35,544 nucleotides of DNA from Bdellovibrio sp. (GTDB lineage: Bacteria > Bdellovibrionota > Bdellovibrionia > Bdellovibrionales > Bdellovibrionaceae): positions 1 to 35,544 of the forward strand of contig JABWCO010000020.1 in assembly GCA_013360185.1 (NCBI GenBank), in the 5' to 3' direction. The notes beneath the pieces are model-generated. The model was not told the DNA's origin, searched no databases, and saw only the letters and a list, made by a program, of their open reading frames with translations. A program made the translations under genes and the position numbers. Positions 12,127-22,411 of the stretch are shown one piece after another (position 1 is the first letter of the stretch; each line of letters starts with the position of its first letter).

Positions 12127-13122
12127 TCAATTCTTCACTGCGTTAAACGTTCTTAACTGCACGATCGGATGAATCACGACGCCCTGTGGAAGCTCCGCCC
12201 CAGTCAAATCAAACTGATCGTTTTTGACTGGAATTTTCACTATCTTCGCACCATTCCCCGCGTCGACAACAAGTTTAAGATAGACACCTGTGATCGCATT
12301 CGCAGCTGTGGTTCCGTCCACATTCCACAACGTCGCATGACCATCCACGATTTCTATTTTCGCACTGTCGACAACGGAAGGGTCTTTATGCAAAGAGACT
12401 TCCAATATGCTCGGCGCAAAACCGGCCGCCACGTCCATATCCAACTGGATTTTTTGTTTTAATGAATCGGCTGCATATTTTATCAAGAGCACGGCTTGTT
12501 TGCCGACAGTCGCATCAACAAAATCAAGATCTCGAGTACTATCTTGGGAAATGACACCGATATAACGTGCCGCCAACGATGAATTAGGGACGCTTAAAAC
12601 ATAAGGTTGAACGACCTTTTCACGCATCAAAAAATCATTGAAAGATAACAGCAGTTGACCGGACTCGATATCAAACAAACGATACCCCGTCTGTTCCGCA
12701 CAACATCCACTAAGGCCAGAAACAATGACCGGTAAATTATTATTCACGTTTAAAGTTGTCGCACTTTCTGTGCGCGACCACAGCTTCTTACTAAAGTCTT
12801 CGCCTTTACGAACACTCCACGAAATAGATCCCGTCACACCATCTGCATCAAGATGATATCGCAAAGTTTTTTGACTGCCGACAAGATAGAACTCCGCGCC
12901 ACTCACTTCCGAGTATTTTACATGGGTCTGATAATCTTGGGAGGTCTGCACCACCGAATGGGTCCCTTGTGGGTCTTTAAAAAGCTGAAACTTCGACGTC
13001 CCCGAACTTTCATAAAGCAGATGCCCGGTCGCGGCCATGGCAGCAAGAACTGTCATCACAATGAAGAACGTTAAAAATTTGGAGGCCTTCGGAACACAAA
13101 ATAGTTTGTTAGATTTTTTCAT
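12127..13122 (-). CDS. Membrane-anchored or exported protein of unknown function
   Basis: The 331-residue product has a Lys-rich N-terminus and one hydrophobic segment (about residues 16-34), acting as a signal anchor or a signal peptide cut near A-M-A-A. The remainder is predicted outside the cytoplasm and rich in beta-type sequence, including C-C-A-E, an adjacent Cys pair, around residue 140; I recognise no domain. An in-frame TGA lies two codons before the ATG, so the start cannot be further upstream. No ribosome binding site is visible. The ATG sits in the 21-base gap of a perfect 18-bp inverted repeat, the second arm of which codes for residues 4 to about 10. The gene lies between guaA and dnaE on the same strand but probably has its own control. 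Confidence 0.75.
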   Translation of the reverse strand: MKKSNKLFCVPKASKFLTFFIVMTVLAAMAATGHLLYESSGTSKFQLFKDPQGTHSVVQTSQDYQTHVKYSEVSGAEFYLVGSQKTLRYHLDADGVTGSISWSVRKGEDFSKKLWSRTESATTLNVNNNLPVIVSGLSGCCAEQTGYRLFDIESGQLLLSFNDFLMREKVVQPYVLSVPNSSLAARYIGVISQDSTRDLDFVDATVGKQAVLLIKYAADSLKQKIQLDMDVAAGFAPSILEVSLHKDPSVVDSAKIEIVDGHATLWNVDGTTAANAITGVYLKLVVDAGNGAKIVKIPVKNDQFDLTGAELPQGVVIHPIVQLRTFNAVKN

Positions 13123-13151
13123 AGATCAAAACGCTAACAAACTATTTTGTG
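13095..13151. repeat. Perfect 18-bp inverted repeat surrounding a start codon
   Basis: CACAAAATAGTTTGTTAG (13095-13112) and its exact reverse complement (13134-13151) flank a 21-base gap that holds the ATG of the membrane-anchored gene. Each arm contains a smaller dyad, ACAAA-N4-TTTGT (13096-13109 and 13137-13150), with centres 41 bases apart, close to four helical turns. It can be read as an RNA hairpin with the start codon in its loop or as a pair of DNA operator sites. A -35-like TTGTAA (13167-13162) and a poor -10-like TAGTTT (13144-13139) on the minus strand overlap the upstream arm. Confidence 0.8.
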
Positions 13152-13186
13152 ATTTTTGTAGTTACAAAGCGATCATGAACGACCGG

Positions 13187-13205
13187 TAACACGAACCAAG
13201 TGTTA
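13187..13205 (-). terminator. Small hairpin just after guaA, possible weak terminator
   Basis: TAACAC and GTGTTA form a 6-bp stem with a 7-base loop directly after the guaA stop codon. No U tract follows on the minus strand, so it may only protect the 3' end or do nothing. Confidence 0.3.
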
Positions 13206-13207
13206 AA

Positions 13208-14728
13208 CTATTCCCACTCAATGGTGCCAGGTGGTTTACTGGTGACGTCATAGACGACACGGTTTACACCTTTTACCTTATTGGTAATCAAGTTAGAAAC
13301 TTCTCTTAAAAATTGAAATTCAAAAGGGTACCAATCAGCCGTCATTCCATCTGAAGACGTCACCGCTCGCAAAGCCAGAACGTGATCATAAGTGCGAGAA
13401 TCCCCCTGGACACCCACCGTCTTCACTGGCAAAAGCACACAGAAAGCCTGCCAAATTTTTTCATACAAACCACGCTGGCGCAGTTCGGAAATAAAAATAT
13501 CATCAGCCTCTTTTAATATTCTCAATTTATCTTCTGTGACTTCACCTAGTACACGAATTGCTAACCCCGGACCAGGAAAAGGATGACGCCACAACATCTC
13601 CTTTGGCAGCCCAAGCTGCGCCCCTAAAGCACGCACTTCATCTTTAAAAAGTTCACGCACTGGCTCTACCAATCCCATTTTCATTTTCTCTGGCAAACCA
13701 CCCACGTTATGATGGGACTTAATAGTCACGCTGCCGCCCACAGAAGAAACACTTTCAATCACGTCGGGATACAAAGTCCCTTGCGCCAACCACTTAATAG
13801 GCAAGGTGTTGTCGTGGCTCTTATCAAAAATTTCAATAAAAACACGACCAATGGTTTTACGCTTATCTTCTGGATCAGTTTTTCCCTTAAGAGCCGACAA
13901 GAATTCTTGAGATGCATCCACACCCTTAACATTCAGTCCGATCTTTTTATAGTTTTCTAAAACCGTTTCATACTCGTACTTACGCAACAGTCCATTATCC
14001 ACAAACACACAATGCACACGTTCTGCGCCCAAGGCTTTTGTTAATAACGTCGCCACCACAGTGGAGTCCACACCACCACTCAAACCCACCAGGACATGAT
14101 CGGTGGAACCGACTTTTTCTTGCGCTTCTTTAATTAACAAATCTTTAATATGCGGAGCATCCCAATCAGGAGTAGCCCGACACATCTCTTGCGCAAAGTA
14201 TTTCAATAAATCAATCCCGTGTTCGGTATGGGCCACCTCTGGATGAAATTGCAAAGCAAAATACCCAGGCCCTTGCATCGCCGCCGGATGATTCCCGTCT
14301 GAGTTCGCGATAATCTGAAAACCTTCTGGAGCGCTTTCAACAACATCACCATGACTCATCCAAACTTTTTGCCTCTGTGGAATACCCTTTACGACCGAAG
14401 TCCATGTTACATAATTTAAGCCGTACTCACGATGCTCCGCCCGAGTCACCTTGCCACCCAACTGATAAGTTAAAAGCTGCATACCATAACAAACGCCCAT
14501 CACAGGACTTATGTTACGAAGCTCGCGGACGTCTCTTTGTGGGGAACCTTCTTCATAAACAGAATTCGGTCCACCGCTCAAAATAATGCCGAACGGATTT
14601 TTTTTTACAATTTCCGAAGTCGGATACTTGTACGAATGAATTTCAGAATAAAAACCCTGTTCGCGCAGGCGACGAGCAATCAACTGCGTGAACTGTGAAC
14701 CAAAATCAAGGATGATAAACCCACGCAT
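13208..14728 (-). CDS. guaA: GMP synthase (glutamine-hydrolysing)
   Basis: The 506-residue enzyme converts XMP to GMP using ATP and glutamine. The N-terminal class I amidotransferase domain shows D-F-G-S-Q, S-G-G-P-N-S, the nucleophile Cys80 in G-V-C-Y-G-M-Q and the F-H-P-E-V partner. The ATP pyrophosphatase domain opens with the PP loop S-G-G-V-D-S (about 221-226). The C-terminal dimerisation domain ends with the typical P-P-G-T-I-E-W-E. Length is normal for bacteria. It follows guaB by three bases, with a GAGAG ribosome binding site at the end of guaB, forming the standard guaBA operon. Confidence 0.98.
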   Translation of the reverse strand: MRGFIILDFGSQFTQLIARRLREQGFYSEIHSYKYPTSEIVKKNPFGIILSGGPNSVYEEGSPQRDVRELRNISPVMGVCYGMQLLTYQLGGKVTRAEHREYGLNYVTWTSVVKGIPQRQKVWMSHGDVVESAPEGFQIIANSDGNHPAAMQGPGYFALQFHPEVAHTEHGIDLLKYFAQEMCRATPDWDAPHIKDLLIKEAQEKVGSTDHVLVGLSGGVDSTVVATLLTKALGAERVHCVFVDNGLLRKYEYETVLENYKKIGLNVKGVDASQEFLSALKGKTDPEDKRKTIGRVFIEIFDKSHDNTLPIKWLAQGTLYPDVIESVSSVGGSVTIKSHHNVGGLPEKMKMGLVEPVRELFKDEVRALGAQLGLPKEMLWRHPFPGPGLAIRVLGEVTEDKLRILKEADDIFISELRQRGLYEKIWQAFCVLLPVKTVGVQGDSRTYDHVLALRAVTSSDGMTADWYPFEFQFLREVSNLITNKVKGVNRVVYDVTSKPPGTIEWE

Positions 14729-14731
14729 TTT

Positions 14732-16195
14732 TTAACTCTCCATACGATAGTTAGGAGCTTCTTTGGTGATGCTAACATCATGCACGTGGGATTCACGTAA
14801 GCCCATCGCCGTGATCTGAACAAATTTTGCCTTTGCTTGCAGATCATCGATATTGCGCGCACCCAGATATCCCATGCCTGACTTCACACCACCAACCAAT
14901 TGATGAATGACAGCCGAGGCGGCACCTTTGTAAGCGACTTTTCCCTCGATCCCCTCTGGAACTAATTTTTCATTTTCATCAATGTCCATTTGCCCATAAC
15001 GATCTTTTGAACCGCGTGCCATGGCGCCAAGACTGCCCATACCACGGTAAACCTTATAGGTACGGCCTTGGAATAAAATCGTCTCTCCCGGTGACTCCTC
15101 AGCCCCAGCTAAAAGATTGCCGATCATCACACTGTTAGCACCTAAGGCCAAAGCTTTGGTAATATCTCCAGAATATTTAATTCCGCCATCGGCAACGATT
15201 GTTTTCCCTCTAGCTTTTGCTACTTTTGCACATTCCATGACCGCAGAAATTTGCGGCATGCCGACTCCAGCAACCACACGAGTAGTACAGATACTACCAG
15301 GCCCAACCCCCACTTTTACGACGTCGACACCCGCATCAATCAAGGCGGACGTTCCGTCTGCCGTTACGACGTTTCCAGCAACGATAATAATGTCTTTATA
15401 TTTTTGTGCGATGTACTTCACCATCTCGATCACATTTTTAGAGTGACCATGGGCCGTATCAATGCACAACACATCCACATTGGCGTTGACCAAAGCTTCT
15501 GCTCTGTCCCGTGCATCAGCCCCCACACCCAGTGCTGCGCCAACAAACAGACGCCCGTGTTCGTCTTTCGTGGCTTGAGGATAGTTTTTTGCTTTTTCAA
15601 TGTCTTTGATCGTGATCAGACCTTTAAGTTTTCCGTGAGCATCCACCACCGGAAGTTTTTCAATACGATGCTTTTGCAAAATCTTTTTAGCTTCTTCCAG
15701 CGTCGTACCCATTTTCGCTGTGACCAGGCTTTCTTTGGTCATTAAATTACGAATCGGCTGATCGAAGTTTTCTTCAAAGCGCAAATCACGATTGGTCAGA
15801 ATTCCCTGCAACACACCATCCACTGTGACAGGCACACCACTGATCGAAAACTTTTCCATTAAGTCGACGGCCTCTTGAACTTTGTGATCGGGCCCCAAAG
15901 TAATAGGATCTAAAATCATTCCAGCTTCGTATTTTTTTACTTTTTCAACTTCTAAAGCTTGTTTGTCGATATCTAGATTTTTATGAATGATTCCTAAGCC
16001 ACCGTTTTGCGCCATAATGCGTGCGATGCGATTTTCAGTCACCGTATCCATCGCAGCAGAGATAATCGGAGTGTTTAAAAACTTTCCGCGCGCAAACGGA
16101 GATCTTGGAACAACCTCTGTCGGGGTGATTTCTGAGTACTGCGGAAGAAGAAGAATATCATCAAAAGTTAAAGCATAAGGAATGGGACGTTCCAT
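14732..16195 (-). CDS. guaB: IMP dehydrogenase
   Basis: IMP dehydrogenase oxidises IMP to XMP with NAD+, the committed step to guanine nucleotides. I place the start at the ATG at 16195, because it has AGGAG seven bases upstream and gives 487 residues beginning M-E-R-P-I-P-Y-A-L-T-F-D-D, as in other bacteria; the open frame runs 19 codons further up through a hairpin. The TIM barrel is interrupted by two CBS domains (about 95-205). The catalytic Cys is Cys303 in G-P-G-S-I-C-T-T-R, and the G-M-G-S and flap elements follow. The next gene, guaA, starts three bases after it. Confidence 0.98.
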   Translation of the reverse strand: MERPIPYALTFDDILLLPQYSEITPTEVVPRSPFARGKFLNTPIISAAMDTVTENRIARIMAQNGGLGIIHKNLDIDKQALEVEKVKKYEAGMILDPITLGPDHKVQEAVDLMEKFSISGVPVTVDGVLQGILTNRDLRFEENFDQPIRNLMTKESLVTAKMGTTLEEAKKILQKHRIEKLPVVDAHGKLKGLITIKDIEKAKNYPQATKDEHGRLFVGAALGVGADARDRAEALVNANVDVLCIDTAHGHSKNVIEMVKYIAQKYKDIIIVAGNVVTADGTSALIDAGVDVVKVGVGPGSICTTRVVAGVGMPQISAVMECAKVAKARGKTIVADGGIKYSGDITKALALGANSVMIGNLLAGAEESPGETILFQGRTYKVYRGMGSLGAMARGSKDRYGQMDIDENEKLVPEGIEGKVAYKGAASAVIHQLVGGVKSGMGYLGARNIDDLQAKAKFVQITAMGLRESHVHDVSITKEAPNYRMES

Positions 16196-16209
16196 GAACT
16201 TGCTCCTGG

Positions 16210-16248
16210 ACTTGGGTTTATTCATTCTCAAATGAAAAAACCCAGAGT
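16210..16248 (-). promoter_or_regulatory. Long hairpin in the guaB leader
   Basis: Bases 16210-16226 pair with 16230-16248 in a near-complete stem (one bulge, one mismatch) with a 3-5 base loop. It fills most of the 64-base gap between the carbonic anhydrase gene and guaB and ends shortly before the guaB SD. No U tract follows on the minus strand. It may be a processing or attenuation element, or a terminator for the upstream genes. Confidence 0.5.
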
Positions 16249-16259
16249 TCAAGAGGAGA

Positions 16260-21838: not shown

Positions 21839-22318
21839 TTACAAAGAATTTACGTGAGCCGTGATTTCGCGCACTTGATCCAAGTTGTTCTTAGCTTGCA
21901 TGATCAAATCAACAGCGTCTTTTTGCTTCAAACGACCCGCCGCCATTTTTTCGCAGATAAGAGCTTCTAACTTGTCAGTGATTTGGTAAATACTTTCATG
22001 CTGTGGCCACAAGTTTTTAACGTCGTTGCTGCCACCTGCGCACAAAGGAATATAATGGTCGATTTTAAACGCTTGGCGCTTCATTGTACGAGTACGGAAA
22101 CCAAGTTGGTCGTACTTTTGAAAAATACCGCCCTTGGTACCCGTAGACACGTCACGCTCGCAGTATTTAATGTGTTCTGGGTATCTGTAAGTGTCAGCGC
22201 GTTCGCACAGCACACCTGGGGTCAATGCTACGTCCGGCCCCATCGGAAAATTCCCACCAGCGTGAGAAACAGTTGATAAAACCAACATCGACACGAATAG
22301 AGCAAAGCCCTTAAACAT
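21839..22318 (-). CDS. Secreted HNH-type nuclease
   Basis: The 159-residue product has a signal peptide ending V-S-H-A (residue 20), so the nuclease acts outside the cytoplasm. The HNH motif is clear: D-H at 87-88 in K-I-D-H-Y-I-P-L, then G-G-S-N-D-V-K-N-L-W-P-Q-H with Asn102 and His107 as candidates for the central Asn and the metal-binding His. Four or so Cys residues (38, 53, 93 and one later) suggest disulfides. A secreted nuclease with no immunity gene beside it fits degradation of foreign or prey DNA; that role is inference. The ribosome binding site is strong (GGAGGGG). Three small inverted repeats precede it. Confidence 0.9.
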   Translation of the reverse strand: MFKGFALFVSMLVLSTVSHAGGNFPMGPDVALTPGVLCERADTYRYPEHIKYCERDVSTGTKGGIFQKYDQLGFRTRTMKRQAFKIDHYIPLCAGGSNDVKNLWPQHESIYQITDKLEALICEKMAAGRLKQKDAVDLIMQAKNNLDQVREITAHVNSL

Positions 22319-22334
22319 TTCCCCTCCAAATAGA

Positions 22335-22411
22335 CTGCCATTATGGTGGCAGGTAGAAACGTCAGACCAATTTCTGACATATATTTGAGTAATTTCGGTT
22401 AGTCCTACCGA
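22335..22411 (-). promoter_or_regulatory. Three consecutive small hairpins upstream of the HNH nuclease
   Basis: Reading on the minus strand: TCGGT/ACCGA (22411-22395, 7-base loop), GTCAGA/TCTGAC in the reverse sense (22378-22361, 6-base loop) and CTGCCA/TGGCAG (22352-22335, 6-base loop). The last two have identical 6-6-6 geometry and are 8 bases apart. The final hairpin ends about 12 bases before the SD. They could be structured leader RNA or protein binding sites; no promoter could be placed firmly. Confidence 0.5.

Follow-up and report, generated by a model that had tools for sequence, protein, structure and literature searches.

The window, i.e. the whole stretch of 35,544 nt analysed from the 3.5 Mb genome of a Bdellovibrio sp. 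(GenBank contig JABWCO010000020.1), carries on its minus strand the genes guaB, guaA, a gene encoding a protein of 331 amino acids and dnaE, in that order and with the names given from reading the translations (Table 1). Members of the 331-aa gene family are present in 21 of the 24 genomes of the genus, and the named match to the family is a Bdellovibrio MAG. Searches with the 331-aa protein against Pfam and NCBIfam gave no significant match, and its AlphaFold model (pLDDT 88) showed no match in PDB at E <= 0.001. A literature search on this gene and on leaderless mRNAs in Bdellovibrio found nothing.

Table 1. Genes and sequence features around the start of the 331-aa gene (window coordinates)
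Feature	Position	Strand	Remarks
331-aa gene	12127..13122	-	Exported or membrane-anchored protein, function unassigned; genus-wide family
3' arm, CTAACAAACTATTTTGTG	13095..13112	-	Plus-strand letters CACAAAATAGTTTGTTAG; codons 4-10 of the 331-aa gene
Start codon ATG	13120..13122	-	In the loop of the repeat; no Shine-Dalgarno sequence
Predicted transcription start	13122..13124	-	Leaderless or nearly so; from the position of the -10 element
Probable -10 element, TAGCGT	13131..13136	-	Preceded by TG-T (13139-13137), as in an extended -10
5' arm, CACAAAATAGTTTGTTAG	13134..13151	-	Minus-strand letters; located between TTTGTAACT and the -10 element
TTTGTAACT	13160..13168	-	Best conserved motif of the upstream region; all 15 orthologs have TGTAACT
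Further conserved TTA (13189-13187) and GTnATGA (13180-13173)	13173..13189	-	From the ortholog alignment
guaA (GMP synthase)	13208..14728	-	85 bp upstream of the ATG; presumed source of read-through
guaB	14732..16252	-	Name from reading the translation

The start codon of the 331-aa gene is enclosed by an inverted repeat, the two arms of which are exact reverse complements over 18 of 18 bp with a gap of 21 bp (24 nt at 92% when extended by the inverted-repeat tool). An earlier note on this DNA had described the perfect 18-bp repeat, the only usable ATG in its 21-base gap, the missing Shine-Dalgarno (SD) sequence and the coding downstream arm, and all of this was borne out; no other in-frame start exists near the beginning of the ORF (start 13122, minus strand), and no SD sequence was visible in AAATAGTTTGTTAGCGTTTTGATCTATG. 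In mononucleotide-shuffled flanks (3,000 shuffles) the longest perfect enclosing run had a mean of 5.8 and a maximum of 12, and a related genome, whose 1,086 starts were predicted with a simple script, likewise had a longest run of 12, compared to the 18 observed here. The RNA fold of the region has a z-score of -5.45. The related genome showed no clear genome-wide excess of start-enclosing repeats (at a score of at least 10, 10 of 1,086 starts against 5 of 1,065 internal control codons), so the repeat is not part of a genome-wide device. The 18-mer arm was found nowhere else in the genome with up to two mismatches, the best other sites having three, and the hairpin is a cis element present once, at a gene on the chromosome of a predator. 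It does not have the look of an intrinsic terminator, i.e. a GC-rich stem and then a T-run: no T-run follows the stem (past 13095), and no terminator-like site was found in 12900-13300. Rfam gave no match above the gathering score at the hairpin, the sole match of the window being a purine riboswitch elsewhere (RF00167, 51.3 bits, 22311-22406, minus strand), which either overlaps or closely precedes the start of an ORF of 159 aa (21839-22318) with no Pfam match.

Fifteen orthologs, this one included, share the upstream element, while six others form a related comparison group in the protein tree and show a plain SD sequence in at least three loci (L017, L018 and L020). One of the fifteen, L015, sits on a long branch and is placed nearer to this second group. 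In nine of the 15 loci (L001-L004 and L009-L013), representing about six lineages including the present one, an inverted repeat encloses the start codon, with differing letters; examples of arm pairs are TGCGAAGAAGCTTT/AAAGTTTCTTCGCA, CTTTGGATGTTTT/AAAACATCCAAAG, GCGGAAGAAGT/ACTTCTTCCGC and GGATGTGCTT/AAGCACATCC, the 3' arm being situated within roughly the first 11 codons. When duplex energies were calculated for the 15 orthologs, cognate arms gave -16.4 kcal/mol versus -10.0 for arms swapped between species, and for ten clade representatives the values were -16.2 versus -9.6 kcal/mol, with none of 100,000 permutations as good in either case. The six-sequence comparison group showed no advantage of cognate arms (-6.6 versus -6.8). 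An alignment of seven sequences, six rows of which share the pairing register, revealed changes on both sides in 8 of 11 outer-stem pairs with 89.9% of the cells still pairing, and sliding the register by 1-3 columns cut the paired cells to 43-53%; RNAalifold reported nine pairs changed on both sides in the same alignment. An initial MAFFT alignment with 13 sequences yielded no consensus fold, as the register of the pairing shifts from one species to the next. The inner TTTTC/GAAAA stem barely varies and is evidence neither way, and the synonymous-recoding controls by themselves gave only moderate z-scores, about -1.3 to -2.4 in the paired loci. A covariance model found one strong copy per genome, always at the 331-aa gene; its other matches (L086, L087 and L090), all below 26 bits, were taken as chance. 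It is the pairing of the arms, not their sequence, that is conserved in the genus, and the comparison of relatives which the earlier note had proposed has thus come out for its RNA-pairing reading, the letters changing and the pairing being kept.

When analysing the region upstream of the start codon, 14 of the 15 orthologs were found to carry a -10-like element, TA[G/C]NNT, at a distance of 6-8 nt from the ATG (usually 7 nt, here 8 nt), its TA being invariant and the T at TA+5 present in all but one of the 15. The complete upstream consensus reads TT(A)-N9-GTnATGa-N5-TGTAACT-N22/23-TA(G)NNTT-N6/7-ATG, with the positions between the TA and the T five bases later varying. No recognisable -35 box belongs to the TAGCGT element, and since TTTGTAACT is about 23-25 nt away from it, an activator must be assumed, for which TTTGTAACT is probably the site. 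Plain TTGTAACT was also considered as a -35 for the TAG -10 and was ruled out, as the spacer would be about 24-25. Just before the hairpin, at 13176-13162, lies a four-codon mini-ORF, ATG-NNN-NNN-(T/C/G)TG-TAA, which occurs in 14 of the 15 orthologs and probably arises from the rigid spacing of two DNA motifs; it may also encode a leader peptide, which would be present in read-through RNA.

A TANNNT seven bases before an SD-less start has the look of a leaderless sigma-70 promoter. In 1.2 Mb sampled from a related genome (G006), 28 of 222 SD-less genes have TANNNT 6-8 nt before the start, compared to 13.9 +/- 3.6 in shuffles and with the peak at exactly 6-7 nt, and a leaderless class therefore exists; some of its genes carry a TTGACA-like -35 at 17 nt. 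No paper on such a promoter class in Bdellovibrio was found. The 331-aa gene combines the missing SD sequence with a -10-like element at this distance from its start codon, and the conserved TA(G)NNT 7-8 nt before the ATG suggests that its native mRNA, with a predicted 5' end at or next to the ATG, is probably leaderless. A transcription start at this position would put the 5' arm into the promoter spacer, where the sequence is free to vary, and the native mRNA would consequently lack it. Three bases at the beginning of the -10 also belong to this arm; in the relatives the equivalent arms span about -29 to -16.

We propose, with a probability of roughly 0.6, that the hairpin is a translational insulator against read-through from guaBA, built around a leaderless promoter and working like the one of phage T4 gene e. 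From the gene's own promoter, with its -10 in the upstream half of the hairpin, the RNA would begin at or next to the ATG and would, lacking the 5' arm, stay open and be translated without an SD sequence. Polymerase running through from guaBA, after which no terminator-like site was found before the 331-aa gene in this window, would instead produce an RNA with both arms, in which a hairpin of about -24 kcal/mol would enclose the ATG in its loop and prevent synthesis of the 331-aa protein. Since the native RNA would lack the 5' arm, folding would be confined to read-through RNA, which begins further upstream, and the hairpin would shield the gene from upstream transcription. The predicted cost of freeing -15 to +15 in the read-through RNA is 13.2 kcal/mol and that of freeing the first 15 nt of the native leaderless RNA 1.3 kcal/mol, so that by prediction the start is sequestered in RNA from an upstream promoter, as is typical of gene e (the z-score of the fold being that given above). 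Against the model count the need for an activator and the possibility that an internal AUG lacking an SD sequence gives little translation in any case, so that a hairpin would be less needed. The earlier note had set an mRNA hairpin against a DNA site, with a transcription start near the ATG favouring the latter; the RNA pairing stood, but a third option fits better than this opposition, as the -10 would lie inside the hairpin, the mRNA would start from the ATG and the hairpin would exist in read-through RNA only.

In T4 gene e, long early transcripts from upstream mask the start of translation by folding (as also in soc, 49 and I-TevI), and the RNA from a late promoter within the structure lacks the 5' strand and is translated (PMC3014915). 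The likeness is that in Bdellovibrio, too, upstream RNA is predicted to hide the start, and that the conserved TA(G)NNT may mark an inner promoter whose RNA, devoid of the 5' strand, would stay open; we compare the two without counting the Bdellovibrio hairpin as one of the gene e type. The differences are that the proposed Bdellovibrio message is leaderless and SD-less and comes from a conserved gene on the chromosome of a free-living predator, and that gene e is proven experimentally whereas the present case rests on comparative evidence. The transposase genes of IS10 and IS50 likewise have an inverted repeat around the start, a native RNA lacking one arm and a read-through RNA in which the start is hidden, but there is no transposon here, and the arms, found at this site only, are neither the ends of an element nor repeated in the genome. 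To our knowledge, hairpins silencing read-through are known mainly from phage and transposons; the proposed insulator, if true, would add a conserved chromosomal case with strong covariation and a leaderless promoter, by which bacteria separate neighbouring genes without a terminator. In B. bacteriovorus the attack and growth programmes largely exclude each other (PMC3627812), which suggests why isolation from guaBA might be useful, and the hairpin would then be a post-transcriptional means of separating the two programmes.

When comparing the orthologs, five were found to have a strong terminator upstream, either after guaA (L005-L008) or after an insertion (L014), and in these the pairing is weak and non-significant (-10.5 to -14.6), no better than shuffled, while the nine loci without a comparable terminator show strong pairing (-17.6 to -23.3, spacer-shuffle control). 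The remaining locus, L015, has a separate 11-bp hairpin which again surrounds the -10-like element, its end falling on the A of the ATG. L010 and L011 carry a moderate terminator-like hairpin, yet have a strong start hairpin. L009, where another gene is situated between guaA and the 331-aa gene, also has a strong start hairpin. A plain rank correlation over all 15 loci is not significant (rho -0.35, p 0.20), partly because of the moderate hairpins of L010/L011 and the different structure of L015. The pattern was seen post hoc and rests on about two independent losses; the upstream neighbour in L003 is ambiguous, and L012 is located at the end of a contig. Loss of the repeat in close relatives, which was to count against the earlier note's claim, does occur in L005-L008 and L014, but these are the very loci with strong terminators (G006 and G002 belong to this group), and sister species which have a terminator and have lost the hairpin offer a natural comparison. 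Like the start hairpin, the terminators of L005-L008 between guaA and the gene would separate the gene from guaBA; unlike it, they stop transcription and have a T-run. In L005, L007 and L008 they are very long near-perfect palindromes, GGTACCTGC...GCAGGTACC followed by T-runs, which are absent from this window, and a similar palindrome, GGTACCGCC, was also seen in L022. A wider proposal, put forward tentatively and rather unlikely as a whole, is that the Bdellovibrio hairpin shields a leaderless phase-specific gene from growth-phase guaBA read-through, that hairpin and terminator are interchangeable in evolution and that the device recurs at other leaderless genes for exported proteins in predatory bacteria.

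The pairing would be conserved also if the native mRNA started just upstream of the repeat, with TTAnnn-N17-TGTAAC as -35 and -10 and a start near -31, all messages then beginning with the hairpin and the AUG being presented or hidden by the stem under the control of temperature, a protein or an sRNA. TTA and TGTAAC are always the same distance apart, and such a start would fall where the arms begin, 6-11 nt past TGTAAC. However, TGTAAC lacks the A and the T that matter most in a -10 box, the invariant TA...T just before the ATG is left unexplained, translation from a message with a stem of -24 kcal/mol and no SD sequence would be almost nil, and no reason is given for the loss of pairing in the terminator-bearing loci, which makes this arrangement unlikely. 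Thermosensors, riboswitches and other 5'-UTR RNA switches resemble the present case in holding the start codon in a hairpin, and differ in that no Rfam match was obtained here and in that the native mRNA of the preferred insulator model would lack the 5' arm.

Another explanation for the hairpin being lost where there is a real terminator, and for its position directly after guaA, would be that it stabilises or terminates the 3' end of the guaBA mRNA and overlaps the next gene by chance. This is improbable, as the stem has no T-run, always straddles the start of the 331-aa gene and is strong in L009 despite the gene intervening after guaA. A functionless repeat, kept by template-switch (quasi-palindrome) mutation copying one arm onto the other, has to be considered as well, given that such events are generally known to yield concerted change and perfect repeats, here of 18 bp; but the repeat recurs at one place in about six lineages and other starts show no such excess, which calls for selection or for a local hotspot, and its 3' arm is part of a coding sequence, so we regard this explanation as quite improbable.

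The double operator for a dimeric or looping repressor, as proposed in the earlier note from ACAAA-N4-TTTGT in each arm, is very hard to uphold, as the dyads do exist in this genome (13096-13109 and 13137-13150, centres 41 bp apart) but no ortholog has preserved them or the letters of the arms, in contrast to the pairing. The second copy is not independent evidence, since a self-complementary dyad in one arm necessarily reappears in the other arm, its reverse complement, and a genome scan for the 14-bp dyad gave 15 sites, barely above the 9 for a reversed control pattern, and therefore marks no regulon.

Other genes starting inside an inverted repeat were observed in the genus. A second exported, lipoprotein-like gene with the metalloprotease motif HEIGH does so at L112 (G020:C1:1016334, minus strand), L113 and L114 (G006:C1, about 3157468), and the letters of its repeat in G020 differ from those in G023 and G006. 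The 5' arm in G020 is located in the spacer of a FliA-like promoter (TTAAG-N16-CCGAAA, 7 nt before the ATG), and a T-run is found after the 3' arm. The strongest start-enclosing repeat of the 1.2-Mb sample, AAAAGGTGAACTT..AAGTTCACCTTTT (G006:C1:3153845, plus strand, L193), surrounds the start codon (ATG) of an exported protein of 526 amino acids; a T-run comes after it, and its stem contains an SD-like AGGTGA.
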